A DNA stretch of 41,165 bases from a virus, in the IMG/VR virus record IMGVR_UViG_3300048586_000289, positions 1-41,165 of that record; one strand, given 5' to 3'. Shown in pieces: positions 3,404 to 41,165 of the stretch; the stretch's first letter is position 1, and every line of letters begins with the position of its first letter. Below the pieces are notes generated by a model, which saw only the letters and a program-made list of their open reading frames with translations, was not told the DNA's origin and did no database searches. A program made the translations under genes and the position numbers.

Positions 3404-5431
3404 ATGAAAACCATTAAAATCAAATCGCTCGCCCTTCAGAATTTCAAGGGCATACGCAACCTTCACATTGCCGACTTCGGTCAGGAAACAAACATCTTCG
3501 GTGCCAACGCTTCCGGAAAGACAACTGTATTCGATGCCTTTACTTGGCTACTTTTCGGAAAGGATTCCACCGACCGCCAAGCGTTCGAGGTTAAGACCCT
3601 CGACAAATCCAACAATCCAATCCCACAGCTGGAGCATTCCGTTACCGCTACTCTTGAAATCGATGGCGAGCAAATCGATATACAGCGCACCCTTCGCGAG
3701 AAATGGGTAAAACAGCGTGGAGCTTTGGAAGCTACTTTCCAAGGCAATGAGCAGGCCTTCTTTTGGAACGGCGTACCGATGCAGGCGGGGGAATTTGCGA
3801 AAAAGGTATCAAGCCTGATGGACGAGAAGATCTTCAAGCTTATAACAAACCCACTTGCCTTCAACGCTATGAAATGGCAGGACCAGCGCGCAGTCCTGAT
3901 GGACATTGCCGGAAACATCACGGATAAGGACTTAGCTAAGGGAAATAGCAACTTTGAGGCATTGCTCAACAAGTTGTCCAACAAGTCACTTGACGAATAT
4001 AAAAAGCAGGTGGCCGCCCAGATCAAAAAGGCGAAGGATGAACTCAAGATGCTCCCTACCCGAATTGATGAAGTGGAGCGTGGGAAGCCTCAGGCTATTG
4101 ATTTTGATGGAATAAAACATGCCTTGAAAGTTTCAGAAATTCAATTGAATGGCATTGATGACCAGATCACCGACCGCCTAAAGGCACAACAGGCCATCAA
4201 CGATAAAAAGGCTGAGAAACAGCAAAAGATCTATGCACTTAAAAGTGAAATATCTTCCATCGAGCATAATGCCAAAATGGAAGCTGAAAAGCAAGTTCGG
4301 GAGGCTGGTTCAAAATCTACTGAACTGCTTGGTAAGATCAAAGAAGTGGATTCTGAAATCCAAGCCGCTGAGAATGGAATCAACACCTTGGTTTCTACTG
4401 TGAAATCTAAAGAATCGGAAATTGAAGGCTATAAAACGAAGCAGGAAAAAATTCGTAAAGGATGGATGGAACGCAATGCTGAAACCTTCAAGATGGATGA
4501 AAACGATTGCAAGTGTCCAACTTGTAAGCGTGAATATGATGCGGATGACATCGCAGCCGAAAAGGTTAAGATGGAGGCTAATTTCAAATTCAATAAGCAG
4601 CTTGATTTAGATGCCCTATCGGCACAAGGAAAATCCCTAACGCTGGTAATTGAAAACCTTGTAAAAGAAATATCCGGACTTTCTGAACGTATAGAAAATG
4701 GTAAAAAGCATCTTGAAAAATTGGTTGCTTCAAAATCTGAATTGGAGACCGAACTTGAGAATGACAAAGGTCTGGAAGGTATCAGTACCGTAGAAGAAAT
4801 CGTTTCCGGCATTTTGGGCAGCAATAAAGAACTGCCATCCATCAATCAGGAAATCCAAAAACTTGAAGAGCAGCTAAACAATCAGGAAGGCGTGAACGTG
4901 GATGATCTGAAATCCAAAAAAGCTGAAATCAACGCAAGGATTTCAGAACTCAAAACCCAGTTACAGGCCGAGGAGCAAATCAAAAAAGCAGATGAGCGCA
5001 TCGCTGAGCTGATGAAAATGGAAAGCGAACTGGCCCAGCAGATCGCAGATGTGGAACGCGAACAGTTCACGATCGAGAATTTCATCAAGGCAAAGATTGA
5101 CAGGCTGGAGGCCATCATCAATGAAAAGTTTGCATTTGTAAACTTTAAGATGTTTGAGACCCAAATCAACGGTGGCGAAGTCGAGACCTGCAAGGCCCTT
5201 GTGGACGGCGTACCCTTCAGCGATGCCAACAATGCCGCCAAGATAAATGCCGGTATCGACATTATCAACACCCTTTGCGAGCATTACCAAGTGAGCGCTC
5301 CAATTTTCGTGGACAACCGTGAGAGCGTTTCAAGGCTCATAGACAGCAAATCACAGATCATTAACCTAATCGTTTCCGAGGCCGATGCAAAATTGCGCAT
5401 CGAAGCTCCTGAAATGGTTGAAGCAGTTTAG
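3404..5431 (+). CDS. SMC/SbcC-Rad50-like ATPase with zinc-hook motif
   Basis: 675 residues. The N-terminus has an ABC/SMC-type Walker A (GANASGKT, residues 33-40). The middle is long coiled coil interrupted near residue 370 by CKCPTCKRE, matching the CxxC zinc hook of Rad50/SbcC. The C-terminus carries a short ATPase half with APIFVDNRESVSRL (near residue 635), the likely Walker B region, with Asp-Asn in place of Asp-Glu. It is shorter than SbcC (about 1000 residues), as in phage homologues. No Mre11/SbcD-type nuclease is adjacent; RecT and an MBL hydrolase follow. Inferred role: handling DNA ends for recombination or replication. Confidence 0.88.
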   Translation: MKTIKIKSLALQNFKGIRNLHIADFGQETNIFGANASGKTTVFDAFTWLLFGKDSTDRQAFEVKTLDKSNNPIPQLEHSVTATLEIDGEQIDIQRTLREKWVKQRGALEATFQGNEQAFFWNGVPMQAGEFAKKVSSLMDEKIFKLITNPLAFNAMKWQDQRAVLMDIAGNITDKDLAKGNSNFEALLNKLSNKSLDEYKKQVAAQIKKAKDELKMLPTRIDEVERGKPQAIDFDGIKHALKVSEIQLNGIDDQITDRLKAQQAINDKKAEKQQKIYALKSEISSIEHNAKMEAEKQVREAGSKSTELLGKIKEVDSEIQAAENGINTLVSTVKSKESEIEGYKTKQEKIRKGWMERNAETFKMDENDCKCPTCKREYDADDIAAEKVKMEANFKFNKQLDLDALSAQGKSLTLVIENLVKEISGLSERIENGKKHLEKLVASKSELETELENDKGLEGISTVEEIVSGILGSNKELPSINQEIQKLEEQLNNQEGVNVDDLKSKKAEINARISELKTQLQAEEQIKKADERIAELMKMESELAQQIADVEREQFTIENFIKAKIDRLEAIINEKFAFVNFKMFETQINGGEVETCKALVDGVPFSDANNAAKINAGIDIINTLCEHYQVSAPIFVDNRESVSRLIDSKSQIINLIVSEADAKLRIEAPEMVEAV

Positions 5432-8354: not shown

Positions 8355-8583
8355 TGAGGGGGGGGTGAATAAGTACCGAAAGATGTGCGGTGAGTTGGAC
8401 CAGGTTGATGTGGTGATCTACATCAACCGGATATCCCCCAAGCTATTCGAGCTGCACATCAACGGTACTATAGTAAAACAATACCGGCAGCGACGGAGCT
8501 GCAACAATCAAATCAAAAAAATTTATAAATCAAAAATTGAACAAAATGAACACACAAACACAAAGTCATCTCCAGGAAGTTGA
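8354..8583 (+). pseudogene. Small gene with G8 tract, start out of frame by one base
   Basis: An ATG at 8354 overlaps the previous stop (TAATG) exactly like its neighbours, but after AGG GGG GGG it meets TGA. One additional G (G9) would join this ATG to an open frame (MCGELDQVDVVIYINRISPK and beyond) that runs to 8583. In the present sequence, translation could only start at GTG 8365 or ATG 8383. The protein is small, beta-rich and unrecognised, and its last third runs through the leader region of the ParB-like gene. It may be phase-variable, mutated, or a sequencing error. Confidence 0.45.
8503..8545 (+). promoter_or_regulatory. Leader motif, copy 4 (degenerate)
   Basis: AACAATCAAATCAAAAAAAT from 8503, then TTATAAATC and the ATG at 8546. 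It shares the AACAATCAAATC core but lacks the CTTA. Confidence 0.4.
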
Positions 8584-10189
8584 CATAAAAAAAATATTTG
8601 TCAGCAAGACCAATCCCCGGAAAACATTTGAGCCCGAAGCAATGAAAGAGCTTCAGGAGAGCATTGAAAAGGTTGGGGTTCTCCAGCCTATCCTATTAAG
8701 AAAACATCCGACACTCTGGAAAGAAAAGATTGGGGAAGTTTATGAGCTGGTATGCGGTGAGCGAAGATACCTGGCTTCGGACAGGGCAGGCCTTGAAACA
8801 ATACCAGCTAACATTCGTGATCTTTCGGATGATGAGGCATTTGAAATGCAGATCATCGAAAACTTGGAGCGCAAGGATGTACACCCATTGGAGGAGGCAG
8901 ATGCTTTTAAGAGAATGCTTGAAAGCGGAAAATATCAGATTGCTGACATTGCGGCCAAGTTCGCAAAACCAGAAACATTTATAGCACAGCGCCTGAAGTT
9001 TGTCGACCTTATCGACGAAATCAAAAAGGATTTCTATGATGGAAAACTTGGTATTGGCCATGCCATCCACATGGCTCGGTTGGACCAAGAACATCAATTT
9101 GAAATTTATGATGAGGCCAATGGAAAACGGAACCGTGGCTATGGTACTGTCCAAGAATTGAAGGATTCGATTGAAGACGACACCTATAATCTTGATGAAG
9201 CCCCATTTGATATCCATAATGGAAAATTGGTAAAAGGTGTTTCGGCGTGCGATATATGCCCAAAGCGTTCCGGCGCAAACCCAACCCTTTTTCCTGACAT
9301 TGATGAGACAGATAAATGTTTTGACCGGATCTGTTATAAAGGAAAATTAGAGGCTCATTTAACAAATGAGGTGGCGGCCATTATCAATGAAGGAAAAAAC
9401 ATAGCGATAGGTGTTACCTGGGGCGAAAAATCACCAGACTTTATTTCTGAAATCTGCAAACAGCATAATGTGAAAATCCTAACCGATAGTGATTATAATA
9501 GAGTTTGGAACGATGATGAAAATAAAGCCCAGAAAATGCTTATTGTAAGTGGGCACAATGCAGGGGATGTTATATCGATTAGATTAAAAGCTTCAAGTAG
9601 CTCGGCTTCCGCTACTCAAGAGCCCTCTGTCCAGGACCAAATAAATAAGATTGAGGAGCGCGCCAAACGTGCGCTGGAGCTCGACAATGTAAAAATCTTC
9701 AATGCAATAAAAGAGGACAAAAAACTATATGATGAATATTCTCTAAGTGATGAGCCATTAACGGATTTGGAAACAAAGGCGCTATGGTTCCTTTTCAAAA
9801 AAGAGGTTCCGGATTATTCATCAACATGGGAATATAACAATCTTATCGATTGCCCAGATTCCTATAATGACATCAGGGAATTTGAATTTTATAAGAACGG
9901 GAAGCTCGAGGAACTAAAATTGAATCAGCTCGTCAGGATGGCTATCAAGGACAAGCTTACCTCGATGCACGAGCCAAACTTTGAGAAGTGTACCAAATCC
10001 AAATTCTATTTTGAGATAATCAAGGAACAGATGCCTCAATCTGTAAAGGCAATTGTTGATGCACAAAATGAGATTGCTCAGAAACGAATTGTACGTACCA
10101 ATGCCAAGCTGAAGGAATTGAAAGCATCTCTTCCGGCAGAAAAACCGAAAAAGAAACCTGCTTCAAAAAAATCCAAGAAAAATGCCTAA
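8546..10189 (+). CDS. ParB/RepB/Spo0J-family protein, long phage form
   Basis: 547 residues from the ATG at 8546 (a TTG at 8537 is also in frame). The ParB N-terminal domain is clear: VDIKKIFVSKTNPRKTF, LQPILLR, VCGERRY (near residue 73) and IIENLERKDVHPLEEA. A HTH follows (YQIADIAAKFAKPETFIAQR). Near residues 233-265 come two Cys pairs (CDICPKRSG, KCFDRICYKG), a probable zinc site found in phage and plasmid ParB-like proteins. The C-terminus is lysine-rich. There is no ParA, so classical partition is unlikely; a DNA-binding or nuclease role in replication is more plausible. Confidence 0.85.
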   Translation: MNTQTQSHLQEVDIKKIFVSKTNPRKTFEPEAMKELQESIEKVGVLQPILLRKHPTLWKEKIGEVYELVCGERRYLASDRAGLETIPANIRDLSDDEAFEMQIIENLERKDVHPLEEADAFKRMLESGKYQIADIAAKFAKPETFIAQRLKFVDLIDEIKKDFYDGKLGIGHAIHMARLDQEHQFEIYDEANGKRNRGYGTVQELKDSIEDDTYNLDEAPFDIHNGKLVKGVSACDICPKRSGANPTLFPDIDETDKCFDRICYKGKLEAHLTNEVAAIINEGKNIAIGVTWGEKSPDFISEICKQHNVKILTDSDYNRVWNDDENKAQKMLIVSGHNAGDVISIRLKASSSSASATQEPSVQDQINKIEERAKRALELDNVKIFNAIKEDKKLYDEYSLSDEPLTDLETKALWFLFKKEVPDYSSTWEYNNLIDCPDSYNDIREFEFYKNGKLEELKLNQLVRMAIKDKLTSMHEPNFEKCTKSKFYFEIIKEQMPQSVKAIVDAQNEIAQKRIVRTNAKLKELKASLPAEKPKKKPASKKSKKNA

Positions 10190-15909: not shown

Positions 15910-16337
15910 TGCGTTGGACCAAGAAAGACATAGAAAAAACCAAATTAGGAAACAATTTGCACGAGATTGGAAATAAAAAAGCCACAATCGGCAATTCAGA
16001 TGTCAAGATCGTAAAGAAATCTATCGAGAAAGAATATATAAAAGCCATTCTCTGGATGTTCAAACGGGATGGCATGATCCCCGGTTATGTGGAGGAGCTC
16101 CAGTTCCACGATGTGCGTAAGTTCCGATTTGATTGGGCCATACCATCAATGAAGATAGCAATTGAGTATGAAGGGATTTTCTCGAAAAAGTCAGGACATA
16201 CAACGGTAGGCGGATATACCAAGGACTGCGATAAATATAATCTGGCCACGCTCGAGGGATGGAAAGTTCTGCGATACACGGCAAAGAATTATAAACAGAT
16301 TTCCAACGATCTAAAATATTTGTTGAAAAAGTACTAA
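15909..16337 (+). CDS. PD-(D/E)XK/DUF559-like endonuclease
   Basis: 142 residues. The core FRFDWAIPSMKIAIEYEG (near 73-89) supplies an Asp and paired Glu in the spacing of Vsr/DUF559-type nucleases, followed by a Lys/Asp-rich segment GGYTKDCDKYNLATLEGWKV and LRYT. Small enzymes of this kind follow phage replication genes and may resolve branched DNA or trim ends. The exact substrate is unknown. Its stop codon lies inside the 25-bp palindrome at 16327-16351. Confidence 0.7.
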   Translation: MRWTKKDIEKTKLGNNLHEIGNKKATIGNSDVKIVKKSIEKEYIKAILWMFKRDGMIPGYVEELQFHDVRKFRFDWAIPSMKIAIEYEGIFSKKSGHTTVGGYTKDCDKYNLATLEGWKVLRYTAKNYKQISNDLKYLLKKY

Positions 16338-16352
16338 AATTTAGTACTTTTG
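16323..16352 (+). promoter_or_regulatory. Promoter (TTG / TACTTTTG) overlapping the palindrome
   Basis: TACTTTTG at 16345-16352 matches the Bacteroidota -7 element TAnnTTTG. TTG at 16323-16325 lies 19 bp upstream, the expected -33 spacing. Transcription would start near 16359 and read the ParB-like, Mom-like and terminase genes. Confidence 0.6.
16327..16351 (+). terminator. 25-bp perfect palindrome: terminator and/or operator
   Basis: Arms AAAAGTACTAAA (16327-16338) and TTTAGTACTTTT (16340-16351) are perfectly complementary around the single A at 16339. The downstream arm ends in TTTT, so it could end early transcription. It also covers the -7 promoter element and could be an operator. The upstream gene's TAA stop is within it. 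Confidence 0.6.
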
Positions 16353-16389
16353 AATTTTGAGAATAAGAGAATTTAGTTTCTATAAAGCT

Positions 16390-17007
16390 ATGCAAAACAA
16401 CATTTCGATATCGTCCAAGGTTATCAAGACCGAGCCTATCAAGTGGAAGGAGCTAAGTTTCGTACAGGATGAAAATTTCAAGGAATGGATCGGCAAGGGC
16501 GATGAGAAGCTCCAGCAATCCCTTTTGAAATATCAGTTCATCGATCCGTTCAAGGTTTGGTTTGATGGAGTGCATATATTCTGCCTTGACGGAAAGCACA
16601 GATATCTCGATCTGATTAATCTTCTCGAATCGGGAATAGATGTTCCTGAGGAATTGCCCGCAACGTTTATTGATTGCCGGGATATGAAAGAGGCAGCGGA
16701 ACTGGTGCTAATATATTCCTCACAATATGCCAAGATCACACAGCGCGGACTATTCCAGTTCGTTGAAAAGTTCCAGTTGAACCTAGACAATATGCCGGAG
16801 ATGAACCTTCCAAATTTCAAACTGGATGAATTGCCGCTTACTGAACCCTCGGACCTCACAGCTCCAAATCTTGACAATCCACCGGTTATAAAAATAACAT
16901 TTGTGAATCAAAAGCAGATGGAACAGTTTGAGAAGCGCCTCCAGATGATGGCCGAGGAAACAGAACTTCAGGGAATGAAATATTCCATAAGCCTCGGGGA
17001 ACTATGA
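16390..17007 (+). CDS. ParB-like N-terminal domain protein paired with Mom-like gene
   Basis: 205 residues from the ATG at 16390 (a TTG at 16357 would lie on the transcription start and is less likely). The ParB/sulfiredoxin-like fold is suggested by IKWKELSFVQDENFKEWIGK, LQQSLLKYQFIDPFKVW and LDGKHRYLDLINLL (in place of GERR). The C-terminal 60 residues end in a helix (KQMEQFEKRLQMMAEETELQ). No ParA is present. ParB-like proteins recur in phage DNA base-modification neighbourhoods. Its end overlaps the Mom-like start (ATGA). Confidence 0.75.
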   Translation: MQNNISISSKVIKTEPIKWKELSFVQDENFKEWIGKGDEKLQQSLLKYQFIDPFKVWFDGVHIFCLDGKHRYLDLINLLESGIDVPEELPATFIDCRDMKEAAELVLIYSSQYAKITQRGLFQFVEKFQLNLDNMPEMNLPNFKLDELPLTEPSDLTAPNLDNPPVIKITFVNQKQMEQFEKRLQMMAEETELQGMKYSISLGEL

Positions 17008-17669
17008 GAATCGAAAAGGCATCTGGAAAAGCGATAACGTATGCTTGCAAGGTCTATCACTATGCGAGGCAGAAACCCCAAATCCGTTTGGGCTATTCCG
17101 TTTTCAATGATGCGGGCGAATGGTGCGGTGTAGTTTTGTTCTCGAACGGTGCAAACCCCCATATCGCTTCACAGTTCAATCTCGTGCAGGGCCAAGTCGT
17201 GGAGCTCGTCCGTGTAGCTCTAAATGGAAAACAGAACTGCACCTCACAAGTATTGGGCGCCTGCCTCAGACAATTAAAAAAGGATGCCCCGGCGGTCAAG
17301 ATTGTGGTAAGCTATGCGGACAGGAACCAAGAGCACATCGGTACGATCTACCAAGCGACCAACTGGTTCTACATTGGGGAATATGCGAGCGAGCGTGGGA
17401 TAATGGTCCACGGGAAACTGAAGCATCGGAGATCCTTGAACAAAAAATACGGAACCTCGACAATTTCCTGGCTTCAGGAAAATGTGGATCCCAATGCCGA
17501 AGTGGTGAAAGGGCTATCAAAGATCAAGTATGTATTTCCGTTGGACAAAAGGATGCGGAATGCTGTAAGCACTATGGCCTTGCCCTATCCAAAAAAAGAT
17601 ACTATTTTAATGGGGAACAATAAAAAGACCCATTATGAGCGCACCACAATCATACAAAAGGCTAATTGA
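17004..17669 (+). CDS. Mom-like DNA modification protein (GNAT-type fold)
   Basis: 221 residues. Diagnostic segments are IRLGYSVFNDAGEWCGVVLF, a central VVELVRVALN and VVSYADRNQEHIGTIYQATN followed by WFYIG, the pattern of the phage Mu Mom family. Mom converts adenine to a carbamoylmethylated form and protects phage DNA from restriction. The Ser-Tyr-Ala-Asp, His-Ile-Gly and Tyr-Gln-Ala-Thr-Asn blocks are all intact. No com-like regulator is next to it; control may come from the palindrome promoter upstream. A general acetyltransferase is the alternative. Confidence 0.8.
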   Translation: MRIEKASGKAITYACKVYHYARQKPQIRLGYSVFNDAGEWCGVVLFSNGANPHIASQFNLVQGQVVELVRVALNGKQNCTSQVLGACLRQLKKDAPAVKIVVSYADRNQEHIGTIYQATNWFYIGEYASERGIMVHGKLKHRRSLNKKYGTSTISWLQENVDPNAEVVKGLSKIKYVFPLDKRMRNAVSTMALPYPKKDTILMGNNKKTHYERTTIIQKAN

Positions 17670-17874
17670 AATGAGAGACAAGATTCTTGAATATTTGGAA
17701 AAGGAAAAGAGCATCAATGAGGATGCCCTGAAAGCTTATGAGCCTCAGGCAATTCAGGATGACGATGCGGAGATCAGAAGAATGAGGGAGCGTGAGCGTA
17801 TCAAACTCAATGACCGGGTCTATGAGCTCAAGCGCCATATCGAAGTTATCAAAAGAATGTACCCAAATGGCTAA
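17635..17874 (+). CDS. Small coiled-coil protein, unknown
   Basis: 79 residues, charged and almost wholly helical (MRDKILEYLEKEKSINEDAL; MRERERIKLNDRVYELKRHI). It overlaps the Mom-like end by 35 bases and the terminase small subunit start by 8, so it is tightly coupled to both. No family recognised; it could assist packaging. Confidence 0.6.
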   Translation: MSAPQSYKRLIEMRDKILEYLEKEKSINEDALKAYEPQAIQDDDAEIRRMRERERIKLNDRVYELKRHIEVIKRMYPNG

Positions 17875-18313
17875 CAAATGTACAAAGGCGGAAAAGGAGA
17901 AACGGTTGCTTCAGGTCCAAGGGTGGATCATTGATGGCGCACAGGATAATTTTATCCTCAGACAGATAAGGAACACTTGGAATATTTCATTGGTGCAGGC
18001 CCGGAAGTATCTGAAGCAGGCATATGCAAATTGGCTGCCCGACGAAAGGATCAATATCGAAAACCGACGGGCTGCAAAAATCGCGGAGTTAAAGCAAATC
18101 AAAAGGTCGATGAAAACTGAATACAAGGGCACGCCTGCTGGAATAAATGCAATCACAAGGGTAGAAAAATTGATCATCAAACTGGAGGATCTCGAGCCTG
18201 CCAAAAAACATCAGGTCGATGCCACCGTCGTCCATACGGAAATGACCCGAGAGGAGCGCGATGAGTACATCAAAAAAATGCAGGAAAAACTGATAAAGAA
18301 TGCTAACGTATGA
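17867..18313 (+). CDS. terS: Terminase small subunit
   Basis: 148 residues from the ATG at 17867. The N-terminal HTH (IIDGAQDNFILRQIRNTWNI, SLVQARKYLKQAY) is followed by a helical oligomerisation region and a C-terminal acidic/basic tail. It lies directly before terminase large subunit with a 14-base overlap. It should recognise the packaging site and stimulate the large subunit. Confidence 0.8.
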   Translation: MANKCTKAEKEKRLLQVQGWIIDGAQDNFILRQIRNTWNISLVQARKYLKQAYANWLPDERINIENRRAAKIAELKQIKRSMKTEYKGTPAGINAITRVEKLIIKLEDLEPAKKHQVDATVVHTEMTREERDEYIKKMQEKLIKNANV

Positions 18314-19799
18314 AGAAGCCAAGAAGCTTGAGGAATGTCTATACCTCAATGATGTGGAGGATTCACGGGAGCATCTCCTAAAGTTCACGGAGACCACGTT
18401 CAAAAAGTTCAAGCCGGCGTGGTTCCATACAAAGTTCTATGACATTTTGGACCGCTTTGCAAATGCGGAGATAAAAAACCTCATTGCATCGATGCCACCA
18501 CAGCACGGAAAGTCTGAGGGAAGCTCACGGAGGCTTCCGGCCTACATTGCCGGAAAGCGTATGGCTGACAAGATCGCACTGGTGAGCTATTCCGCTACCA
18601 AGGCCGAGAAGTTCGGCCGTGAGATCATGACCATAATGCGCGAACGGGAGTACAAGGATATTTTTCCCGAGGTCAAATATCCCGAACGCGGGTACACGGG
18701 CACCAAGGCGAACACAAACCAGAGCCGTGAGTCCATCAACAGTGATGGGTCGATGCGGTTTGTTGGTGTAGGTGGGCCCTTGACGGGTGAGCCCGTGGAT
18801 GTACTGATACTGGATGACCTTTACAAGGATTGGCAGGAGGGGAATTCGCCCCTTCAGCAAAAGAAGGTCTGGGAATGGTACCTTTCCGTTGCCGATACCC
18901 GACTCCACAACGATAGCCAGCAACTTATCGTTTTTACCCGTTGGAGTGAGAATGACCTCATTGCAAAACTTGAGGATGATGGAAAGGTCGTTGAGTGGAA
19001 TGGCGAGGATGATCTGGAGGAAATTATTCTAAAACTGAGGAACGACCAGTTCCTGAAGATCAATTTTCCCGCAATCAAAGAAGATGCTCCCAGTTCATTT
19101 GACCCGAGGGAACCCGGCGAGGCACTATGGCCGGACAGGCACTCCATCGAAAAACTGGAATCCTCAAGGGCGATGGATCCGGATATGTTTGACTGTCTCC
19201 ATCAGGGGAATCCTGTCAACAAGGAAGGCCTTTTGTACCAGAACCCTTTCAAGACGTACGCACAGCTACCGGCATACAGGATACTGAAGAACTATACGGA
19301 TACGGCAGACACGGGAACGGATTATCTGTGCAGCATCAACTATCTGGTACCCTTGGCAAACACAGATGAGCATTACTACGTCACAGATGTGGTATATACC
19401 CAAAAGCCAATGGAGTACACCGAGCCAAAGGTCTCAGAGATGTTGATCAATGGCAAGATCAAAAAGGCAAAGATCGAGAGCAACAATGGAGGTAGGGGAT
19501 TTGCCCGGAATGTGGACAGGCTCGTTAAAAAGGTGGACAGGACCATAACGGTCGATTGGTTCCACCAAGCAGCCAACAAGGAGGCGAGGATATTCTCAAA
19601 CTCGGCAAGCGTGAACAGGCTGATCGTTTTTCCGGATGATTGGCACATACGATGGCCAGAATTTTACAAGGCAGTCACTAAACATAAAAAGATTTTTGCA
19701 TCCAACAAAGTTGACGATGCGCCCGATGCGCTCACGGGAATCATAGAGCAGGAAACAAAATCAAGCAGCACAGGATGGGGTTCAAGCCGTACCGCATAG
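18300..19799 (+). CDS. terL: Terminase large subunit
   Basis: 499 residues. ATPase: Walker A-like MPPQHGKSE (near 65-73) and Walker B VLILDDLYKDW (near 168-178), then a coupling motif VFTRWSENDL. Nuclease domain: candidate metal ligands in TDTADTGTDY (near 335), IESNNGGRGF (near 393) and KVDDAPDAL (near 470), the RNase H-like pattern of TerL. It packages DNA into the prohead through the portal, which here is encoded 13 kb downstream. Confidence 0.93.
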   Translation: MLTYEEAKKLEECLYLNDVEDSREHLLKFTETTFKKFKPAWFHTKFYDILDRFANAEIKNLIASMPPQHGKSEGSSRRLPAYIAGKRMADKIALVSYSATKAEKFGREIMTIMREREYKDIFPEVKYPERGYTGTKANTNQSRESINSDGSMRFVGVGGPLTGEPVDVLILDDLYKDWQEGNSPLQQKKVWEWYLSVADTRLHNDSQQLIVFTRWSENDLIAKLEDDGKVVEWNGEDDLEEIILKLRNDQFLKINFPAIKEDAPSSFDPREPGEALWPDRHSIEKLESSRAMDPDMFDCLHQGNPVNKEGLLYQNPFKTYAQLPAYRILKNYTDTADTGTDYLCSINYLVPLANTDEHYYVTDVVYTQKPMEYTEPKVSEMLINGKIKKAKIESNNGGRGFARNVDRLVKKVDRTITVDWFHQAANKEARIFSNSASVNRLIVFPDDWHIRWPEFYKAVTKHKKIFASNKVDDAPDALTGIIEQETKSSSTGWGSSRTA

Positions 19800-39738: not shown

Positions 39739-40941
39739 CTAATTTAACCTCAAATCCAGTTCCTTCAAAAGTTCACGCTGTCTTTTTTCCTTATTGACCT
39801 GGTAGATGGCCGTGGTGGCAGCATTGGTATGCGCCGCCATCTGCTGTGCCACATCTTCGGGGAGACTGTCGAGCAGACTATGTTTTAAGGAATAGAAATC
39901 GGCCGTTACCTTTATAACATTCCCTTCAGCGTCCTTTATTCCATCAGATTTTTTCACTAACCGATACCAGCGTTTTGTAATCTGATAGGATCTTATCTGT
40001 TTAGGCCCCGGCTCCAGGTTCTTTGAGAATATAAAATCATCGGGTTTTGCATCTTTCAAGAGCTCTTCCCAAAATGGCAGCGCATCCTTCAATATCACCT
40101 TTGTTTTTTCACGCTCGCTCCTCCCCTTTCGGATCAAAACCTTATATTCCTGGGCCGCAATGTTCACATCCTTGGCCCGTACCGCGAAAAGCTCAGATGA
40201 CCGTCCTCCGGAATAACTGAAAATCTTGGCATATCGATAGAACGTGTAATATTTGGACTTTAGATAATCCAACACTGCTTTGAAATGTTCCGGGGAAAGT
40301 ACCTCCCGTTCGCGTTTTACAGTTTTTCGCTTCCTGATATCCCGCACGATGTTCGTCTCACAACATTCATATTCCACCAGCTCACGAAAGATGGAACCTA
40401 AATAACCTTTGAAACGGTTGTAATATTCGTCGGGTAAGTCCAGCCTGTCCAAAAGGTTTTTTAGTTGTCTCCTGCTCAGCTCCCCGATGGTGACATCTGC
40501 CATTTTCATTTTAATGGCCATCGGCCGCATACGCTCAGTTACCCATTTAAGCTGTTTGTGTTGTGATTCCGAGACGCGCATTTTTCTCCTGGCAATTTCC
40601 AGAGCTGTAATAAAGGGAAGGTTGGGGTGAAGCTCAGCATTCTTGAAATCTTCATTTATCACGAATCTCTTTAGTATGGGGTTATAGCCCCTGAGGTTAT
40701 TCTCAATCTCATCGTTTAATAATAACAAGGTAGCATCCCGTCGCTCCTTAAGATCTTTATAAGCATTCATACCCTTGACAATGCAAAGTTTCTTTTTGCG
40801 CGGATGTTCGGGGTCATAAAAATAATATTGGATCCGCCAATCTATTTTAGTGAGTGATTGCCCTCCACTTTTCCAGTTCTTCGGAAATATGGATGGATTG
40901 CTCATTGAGCACTTGTTCGGGAGTAGGATTCGGTCTGCCAT
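39739..40941 (-). CDS. int: Tyrosine recombinase integrase
   Basis: 400 residues from the ATG at 40941; upstream in-frame codons run into the tRNA repeat and are not used. N-terminal arm- and core-binding domains are followed by a catalytic domain: Arg247 (SYSGGRSSEL), a beta-hairpin Lys region (LIRKGRSEREK), YSLKH in place of the classic HxLRH (frequent in Bacteroidota integrases), His371 (AAHTNAATT) and nucleophile Tyr380 (TAIYQVN). It joins phage and tRNA-Ala sites. The gene points away from attR and 12-bp repeats lie just before its start. Confidence 0.93.
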   Translation of the reverse strand: MADRILLPNKCSMSNPSIFPKNWKSGGQSLTKIDWRIQYYFYDPEHPRKKKLCIVKGMNAYKDLKERRDATLLLLNDEIENNLRGYNPILKRFVINEDFKNAELHPNLPFITALEIARRKMRVSESQHKQLKWVTERMRPMAIKMKMADVTIGELSRRQLKNLLDRLDLPDEYYNRFKGYLGSIFRELVEYECCETNIVRDIRKRKTVKREREVLSPEHFKAVLDYLKSKYYTFYRYAKIFSYSGGRSSELFAVRAKDVNIAAQEYKVLIRKGRSEREKTKVILKDALPFWEELLKDAKPDDFIFSKNLEPGPKQIRSYQITKRWYRLVKKSDGIKDAEGNVIKVTADFYSLKHSLLDSLPEDVAQQMAAHTNAATTAIYQVNKEKRQRELLKELDLRLN

Positions 40942-40965
40942 TTTATTAACGATTTTATTAACGTT
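40942..40965. repeat. Putative integrase arm-type sites, right end (2 copies)
   Basis: Two tandem copies of a 12-bp word (minus strand CGTTAATAAAAT) lie just before the integrase ATG, each containing ATTAACG on the plus strand (40945-40951, 40957-40963). The same heptamer occurs at the left end. It may also serve integrase autoregulation. Confidence 0.5.
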
Positions 40966-41002
40966 TTGTAAAATGACAGCGTTGAAGCAATTGAATAAAA
41001 TT

Positions 41003-41035
41003 CCCCGAAAACCTATAGTGGTGCGATTTTCGGGG
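41003..41035 (-). terminator. Phage-borne terminator downstream of the tRNA core
   Basis: CCCCGAAAA (41003-41011) pairs with TTTTCGGGG (41027-41035), loop of 15. Read leftward it follows the tRNA 3' end and is followed by AATTTTATT. On integration it would replace the host terminator cut off by the insertion. Confidence 0.6.
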
Positions 41036-41038
41036 ATT

Positions 41039-41086
41039 GTGGAGAATATCGGAGTCGAACCGATGACCTCTTGCATGCCATGCAAA
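41039..41086 (-). tRNA. 3' half of tRNA-Ala(GGC), phage-borne copy
   Basis: Identical to the copy at 52-99 from the anticodon arm to discriminator and first C. Beyond it the phage sequence gives C-A-A where the host has C-C-A. Upstream (toward 41165) the non-tRNA flank is the same as at the left end. Confidence 0.8.
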
Positions 41087-41165
41087 TGCCGAATCATTTT
41101 ACTTTTATAATTAATTGATTTATAGTTTTTTGTGTTTTTGAAGAACTCATTTTCTGCAATAAGGT
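41039..41165. repeat. Right attachment site, direct repeat copy 2 (attP-like)
   Basis: Exact copy of 52-178. In a normal attR the tRNA 5' half should follow the core here. Instead the repeat continues with the phage left-end sequence, so this junction has the form of attP or of a tandem/circular joint. The window ends at the last base of the repeat. Confidence 0.85.

Follow-up and report, generated by a model that had tools for sequence, protein, structure and literature searches.

A ParB-like partner for a Mom-family protein: a predicted DNA modification cassette and its exchange among phages

Little is known of how a bulky base-modifying enzyme is delivered to a phage's own DNA, and recent work (PMC12783734) states that what the ParBc domain does near DNA-modifying enzymes of phages is unknown. 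This question is raised by a two-gene locus in a 41,165-base stretch of DNA (hereafter the window), which equals the length of the virus record IMGVR_UViG_3300048586_000289. Here, a ParB-like gene is followed by a Mom-like gene (Table 1). The genes of the window include those for a phage integrase, RecT, a DnaB-type helicase, and terminase, and the window therefore looks like a temperate tailed phage from its sequence. The integrase is of the tyrosine type and lies at the right end (39739-41097, minus strand), as would fit a temperate phage. A tRNA gene was looked for in the 41,165-base window and not found. We asked what the two proteins are, whether their pairing recurs, and what the ParB-like protein might do for Mom.

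Table 1. Coordinates of the ParB-Mom locus and its flanking features in the window
Feature	Position	Strand	Remarks
Promoter-like site and palindrome, backbone element	16319-16352	+	Motif match; palindrome kept in L267
ParB/Srx-fold protein, 205 aa	16390-17007	+	Alternative TTG start at 16357; AF2 model, Foldseek, family profiles
Exchangeable ParB core with linker	16390-16866	+	GxxR motif as DGKHR (G68, R71)
C-terminal tail, residues 160-205 (...IKITF...YSISLGEL), proposed Mom-docking segment	16867-17004	+	Tail type tracks Mom clade; swap breakpoints at core/tail border
ATGA overlap, ParB-like stop and Mom start	17004-17007	+	
Mom-family DNA adenine modification enzyme (predicted), 221 aa	17004-17669	+	S81 at 17244-17246
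Small ORF between Mom and terminase genes	17635-17874	+	Weak winged-HTH match, PF14090 E=0.005, under curated cut-off
Probable terminase small subunit	17867-18313	+	By position; no confident family match
Terminase large subunit	18300-19799	+	phrog_38 E=8.7e-84

A Mom-family protein and its ParB/Srx-fold neighbour

Performing profile searches, we found that the Mom-like protein matched Pfam PF25680 with 138.6 bits (E=2.7e-40), for which the curated cut-off is 27.1 bits, and its residues 3-197 aligned on profile positions 4-202. It also matched PHROG 1384 'Mom-like' (E=2.9e-46). The sequence-only reading had called this protein Mom-like from two blocks, SYAD and HIGTIYQATNW; both blocks are present, and these profile matches bear the call out. 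The AlphaFold2 model of the protein (pLDDT 87.5) found its best PDB fold match in the Mu Mom S124A structure 8bv8 (E=6.5e-11). The serine S124 of Mu Mom, mutated in this 'inactive' mutant, aligns with S81 of the window Mom. Its S103 and D106 are invariant or nearly so. Judged by sequence and predicted structure together, the second gene of the pair is a true Mom-family protein.

The first gene was harder to name. A single-sequence Pfam search of its product gave no family match, the ParB_N (PF02195) cut-off not being reached, and we dropped this route to a name. The match to PHROG 1033 was weak (E=0.013), and a tblastn search in cultured phages returned one weak match. The earlier label of ParB-like, weak on the single sequence, was confirmed by structure prediction and by family profiles. 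Foldseek placed the AlphaFold2 model (mean pLDDT 88) with Noc/ParB at E=2.3e-6 and probability 1.00, and also with PadC and sulfiredoxin. Profiles of its relatives matched solved ParB N-domains in the PDB, over the N-domain only, and relatives in the same role scored above the Pfam ParB_N cut-off when tested independently. The protein showed no Pfam match to the parS-binding HTH_ParB domain and no Pfam or PHROG match to a separate nuclease family. The models and profiles thus confirmed a predicted ParB/sulfiredoxin-like fold that lacks the ParB helix-turn-helix. The window also encodes, at 8546-10186, a canonical ParB distinct from this protein, which has ParB_N (E=2.5e-26) plus HTH_ParB and is followed by an HNH protein and an SNF2-type helicase.

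We also inspected the nucleotide-binding motifs of the core. The GxxR motif is kept as DGKHR, with its G present in 99% and its R in 89% of 101 relatives. The ENxxR motif is absent, and the window core reads YSSQY at the aligned place. Because the core subfamily of the window has lost the [D/E]N pair that aligns with the ParB CTPase motif, NTP use by this subfamily is doubtful. Going by these residues, it would be unsafe to take the window core for a CTP-driven clamp.

The pair had further been proposed to lie under a promoter-operator of its own. The element itself is there. At 16327-16351 lies a perfect 12+1+12 nt palindrome, unique in the window, that overlaps a Bacteroidota-type promoter-like TTTG-N22-TACTTTTG, which is one of two plus-strand matches in the window. 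The ownership did not stand. In the phages nearest to that of the window, L267 and L268 (TerL 74%), the slot holds neither ParB nor Mom, yet the palindrome is kept at its place with paired base changes; in L267 (about 4941-4966), it lies over a TAnnTTTG promoter-like site and TACATTTG is present. Conservation of this operator upstream of ParB was not seen in other close Mom relatives. A pair-specific operator was rejected for the presence of the palindrome in L267 without ParB-Mom. The pair is thus an insert behind a backbone promoter-like element, and the palindrome probably serves the packaging operon as an operator or a hairpin.

Recurrence of the pair and exchange of tail with enzyme

The ATGA overlap noticed earlier is present between the two ORFs, and a survey of ParB-Mom adjacency showed the pairing to be recurrent. 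Starting from loci of viral and genome collections seeded with the window's Mom clade, we found a ParB-like gene directly upstream of Mom in 148 of 177 assessable related Mom ORFs, with an exact 4-nt overlap in 115 of these 148 pairs, a redundant set that corresponds to 85 distinct pairs. Among the 29 assessable Mom ORFs that had no ParB-like gene upstream, 17 were distant Moms. The upstream ORFs of these Mom loci were used to build the ParB profile and to iterate it, and the Pfam ParB_N scores of its members served as the independent check. Across the 85 non-redundant pairs, ParB and Mom distances correlated at 0.61 against a permutation maximum of 0.21.

The closest Mom relatives in cultured phages (phiEf11, BarretLemon, Appa, and B2_17) also have a ParB_N gene upstream, directly in phiEf11, Appa, and B2_17, and one small gene apart in BarretLemon. 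In this Marthavirus (L003 3765-3998), the gene between the ParB-like gene and Mom encodes 77 residues. The pairing is not peculiar to Bacteroidota: phages of Enterococcus, Arthrobacter, Microbacterium, and Salinibacter carry it too, as do contigs from many phyla. No adjacent ParB was found beside the distant Moms of Mu and of Listeria, ICP1, Mycobacterium, Corynebacterium, Paenibacillus, and Enterococcus Efquatrovirus phages. ParB pairing is therefore a property of certain Mom clades, and Mom does not need ParB in general. Two loci carry two Mom-like genes in tandem (L102 103-1360 and L107 519-1771).

As had been pointed out for the window, the terminase genes directly follow the pair. In most loci tested (46 long downstream genes, chosen for length), the terminase large subunit lies two genes downstream. 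This location fits modification shortly before packaging.

A second scan was seeded with the ParB-like proteins instead of Mom and covered 80 loci. Mom stood next to the core in 32 of them; in 21, the core was fused to a [DSN]PPY methyltransferase; 26 had other partners or none recognised, and one locus was truncated. The exchangeable core of about 120 residues occurs beside or fused with N6/N4 and C5 DNA methylases, TAGT glucosyltransferase, and an ABC-ATPase with GNAT. Further partners are FkbM methyltransferase, class II amidotransferase, a kinase-like protein, and additional glucosyltransferases. In L230 and L260, the core pairs with queuine transglycosylase-like (DpdA-like) proteins as a phage analogue of DpdB-DpdA. 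Cultured viruses show such pairs as well: a ParB-like protein with an ABC/GNAT protein ahead of terminase in Leptospira LE3, with TAGT in Gordonia Lilbeanie and the archaeal virus HHTV-2, and with a glycosyltransferase and UDP-glucose dehydrogenase in Microbacterium RobsFeet. The ParB-like and TAGT glycosyltransferase genes of HHTV-2 (L357 1932-3594) extend the pairing to archaeal viruses.

Comparing closely related phages, we observed that they share flanking DNA (about 79-99% identity) and the ParB core, yet differ in the enzyme. In one set, the enzyme is Mom (L067), a fused methyltransferase (L219), ABC-GNAT (L241), a C5 methyltransferase (L217), or a glucosyltransferase (L252), with cores up to 98% identical. 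A systematic count gave 54 swap pairs in four backbone groups, the clean cassette swaps coming from another core subfamily than that of the window. The left alignment, where it reaches the gene, nearly always stops about 346-384 nt into the core, which is the core/tail border. On the right, alignment begins again no farther than about 135 nt from the stop of the enzyme, with two swap pairs as exceptions. An assembly artefact is unlikely to account for the swaps, because the same breakpoints recur in several different contigs and pairs of these kinds are also present in cultured phages. In the same backbone slot, L208, L222, L240, and L266 carry a second Mom clade with an NGN-tail ParB and mostly an overlap of about 22 nt; their Mom has about one third of its residues in common with the KITF-type Mom of L067.

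We then compared what each part of the ParB-like protein follows. On the Mom tree, the tail types KITF, zinc-ribbon CPxCG, and NGN were tightly clustered (9 changes vs 47 shuffled). On the core tree, which has few columns and many unresolved forks, the partner labels were unclustered, with 27 changes vs a shuffled mean of 26.6. Hence, it is the tail, not the core, that travels with the enzyme. The window and L007 have Moms that are 78% identical and ParB tails that are 57% identical, and their cores align no better than shuffled sequence. L059, L086, and L129 have the core type of the window (47-50%) but more distant Moms and tails. Within the KITF pairs, tail distance still predicted Mom distance once core distance was accounted for (partial r 0.23, 0/1000 permutations), and the core-Mom relation beyond the tail was weaker (partial r 0.10, 26/1000 permutations); tail-Mom coevolution thus exceeds core-Mom coevolution by a modest margin. 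A 69-residue ORF resembling a free ParB tail is ATGA-coupled to Mom in L092 (1608-1817) and L093 (2295-2504). There, it lies directly after an N6/N4 DNA methyltransferase and is a tail without a core.

The part played by the ParB-like protein

We consider it probable that the two genes form a DNA adenine modification cassette, in which the ParB-like protein would be a dedicated partner of Mom, docking the enzyme through its tail and acting on DNA through its core. Before packaging, Mom would attach its small group to adenines in the phage DNA, and this modification would protect the DNA from restriction. The C-terminal tail would make physical contact with Mom. The ParB/Srx-fold core may load the enzyme on phage DNA, target it, or hold it there, whether by a DNA or a nucleotide activity, and it may play the same part for other base-modifying enzymes in related phages. 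The sequence-only reading took the locus for a DNA-modification module of the Mom type that includes a ParB-like partner, and this is well supported by the Mom membership, the conserved serine, the recurrent pairing, and the replacement of Mom by known DNA-modifying enzymes.

The ParB-like protein might instead regulate mom expression in place of Mu Com and have no part in modification. Its gene occupies the same place as com and is ATGA-coupled to mom. Com had been held to be absent here, and our PF10122 search of the record did not find it, whereas the same model does detect Mu Com. In L156 (2155-2385), a Com-type zinc ribbon (PF10122 E=7.5e-12) lies upstream of a Mom nested in the zinc-tailed ParB-Mom clade, which suggests, from the sequences at hand, that Com and ParB can replace each other. 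We nevertheless find a purely regulatory role unlikely. The core is covalently fused to methyltransferases, an arrangement ill-suited to a regulator, and the tail type matches the enzyme clade. The window ParB/Mom junction gave an mRNA fold no stronger than that of shuffled sequences (z=0.28 and 0.51), though the junctions of L036 and L026 do fold better. A Com-like RNA switch at the window junction was set aside on this result, in a test of little power, as the junction of Mu itself falls short of significance too (z=-0.74).

A nuclease or nickase acting on unmodified DNA would make the pair a small restriction-modification-like or competitor-exclusion system. Nuclease or nicking activity of some ParB/Srx proteins is cited in PMC12839542 and PMC10853773, and phage Mom domains fused to endonucleases are described (PMC7824862). 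The fusion of the core to single methyltransferases, the many partner chemistries with no sign of matched specificities, and the lack of a separate nuclease family match in the ParB-like protein make this quite improbable. Doubt could also be directed at Mom, since its GNAT fold is common to many acetyltransferases, and it might modify or acylate a protein, RNA, or small molecule. We give little credence to such a non-DNA target: the best matches in both sequence and structure are Mom itself, sister phages fill the same slot with bona fide DNA-modifying enzyme families, and the slot lies before terminase. Finally, the ParB fold might speak for a partition factor of a plasmid-like prophage with Mom next to it by chance. 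This is scarcely credible, as the protein has no HTH_ParB, the window encodes the separate canonical ParB with the HTH, and the recurrent Mom pairing contradicts an incidental adjacency.

Modular exchange and comparison with known systems

Beyond the cassette with Mom, we propose more tentatively that the ParB/Srx core serves phage DNA modification at large as a module for engaging DNA, kept at a fixed locus before terminase while cassettes of docking tail and enzyme are exchanged. The ParB-like helper looks like a universal holder for differing DNA-camouflage enzymes, and the tail-plus-enzyme exchange is possibly a general principle. If true, phages could switch among Mom, methylation, glucosylation, deazaguanine, and acyl chemistries with the delivery of the enzyme to DNA unchanged. 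The swap loci are natural experiments, in which one backbone and core carry different enzymes with matched tails, and through them the question can be put to the test in cultured phages. The conserved core and the tails also offer a search handle for unrecognised DNA-modifying enzymes. No report of the ParB-Mom pairing or of the tail-plus-enzyme exchange was found in the literature searched, although key older surveys may mention them; the parts are known, and the arrangement with its modular exchange appears new.

The locus resembles com-mom of phage Mu in the Mom family and fold, the conserved serine, the SxAD/YQAxN blocks, and a small upstream gene that overlaps mom. It differs in that the upstream partner is a ParB/Srx-fold protein, whereas that of Mu is the zinc-ribbon translational activator Com, and in that the pair lies before terminase, whereas Mu mom lies at the end of the Mu genome. 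With the canonical ParB/Noc CTPases, the ParB-like protein shares the N-terminal ParB fold and the GxxR motif; unlike them, it has no HTH_ParB, does not keep ENxxR, and shows no sign of a partition role.

The same domain family is known near or fused to DNA base-modifying enzymes. ParBc (PF02195) is fused to phage DNA methyltransferases or found near CmoX in the account given by PMC12783734, and a Wolbachia prophage protein, Met, combines a ParBc domain with a DNA methyltransferase in that of PMC3089641. Mom partners, partner-specific tails, and cassette exchange are not described in those passages. By analogy, the nearest functional precedent would be DpdB with DpdA. According to PMC12839542, the DpdB ATPase, a member of the ParB superfamily, works with the DpdA transglycosylase in bacterial 7-deazaguanine DNA systems, and so a ParB-superfamily protein stands alongside a base-modifying enzyme there as it does here. 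In the window, in contrast, the enzyme is Mom and not a queuine-type transglycosylase, and its partner is an ATGA-coupled phage gene that encodes a short core with a proposed docking tail.
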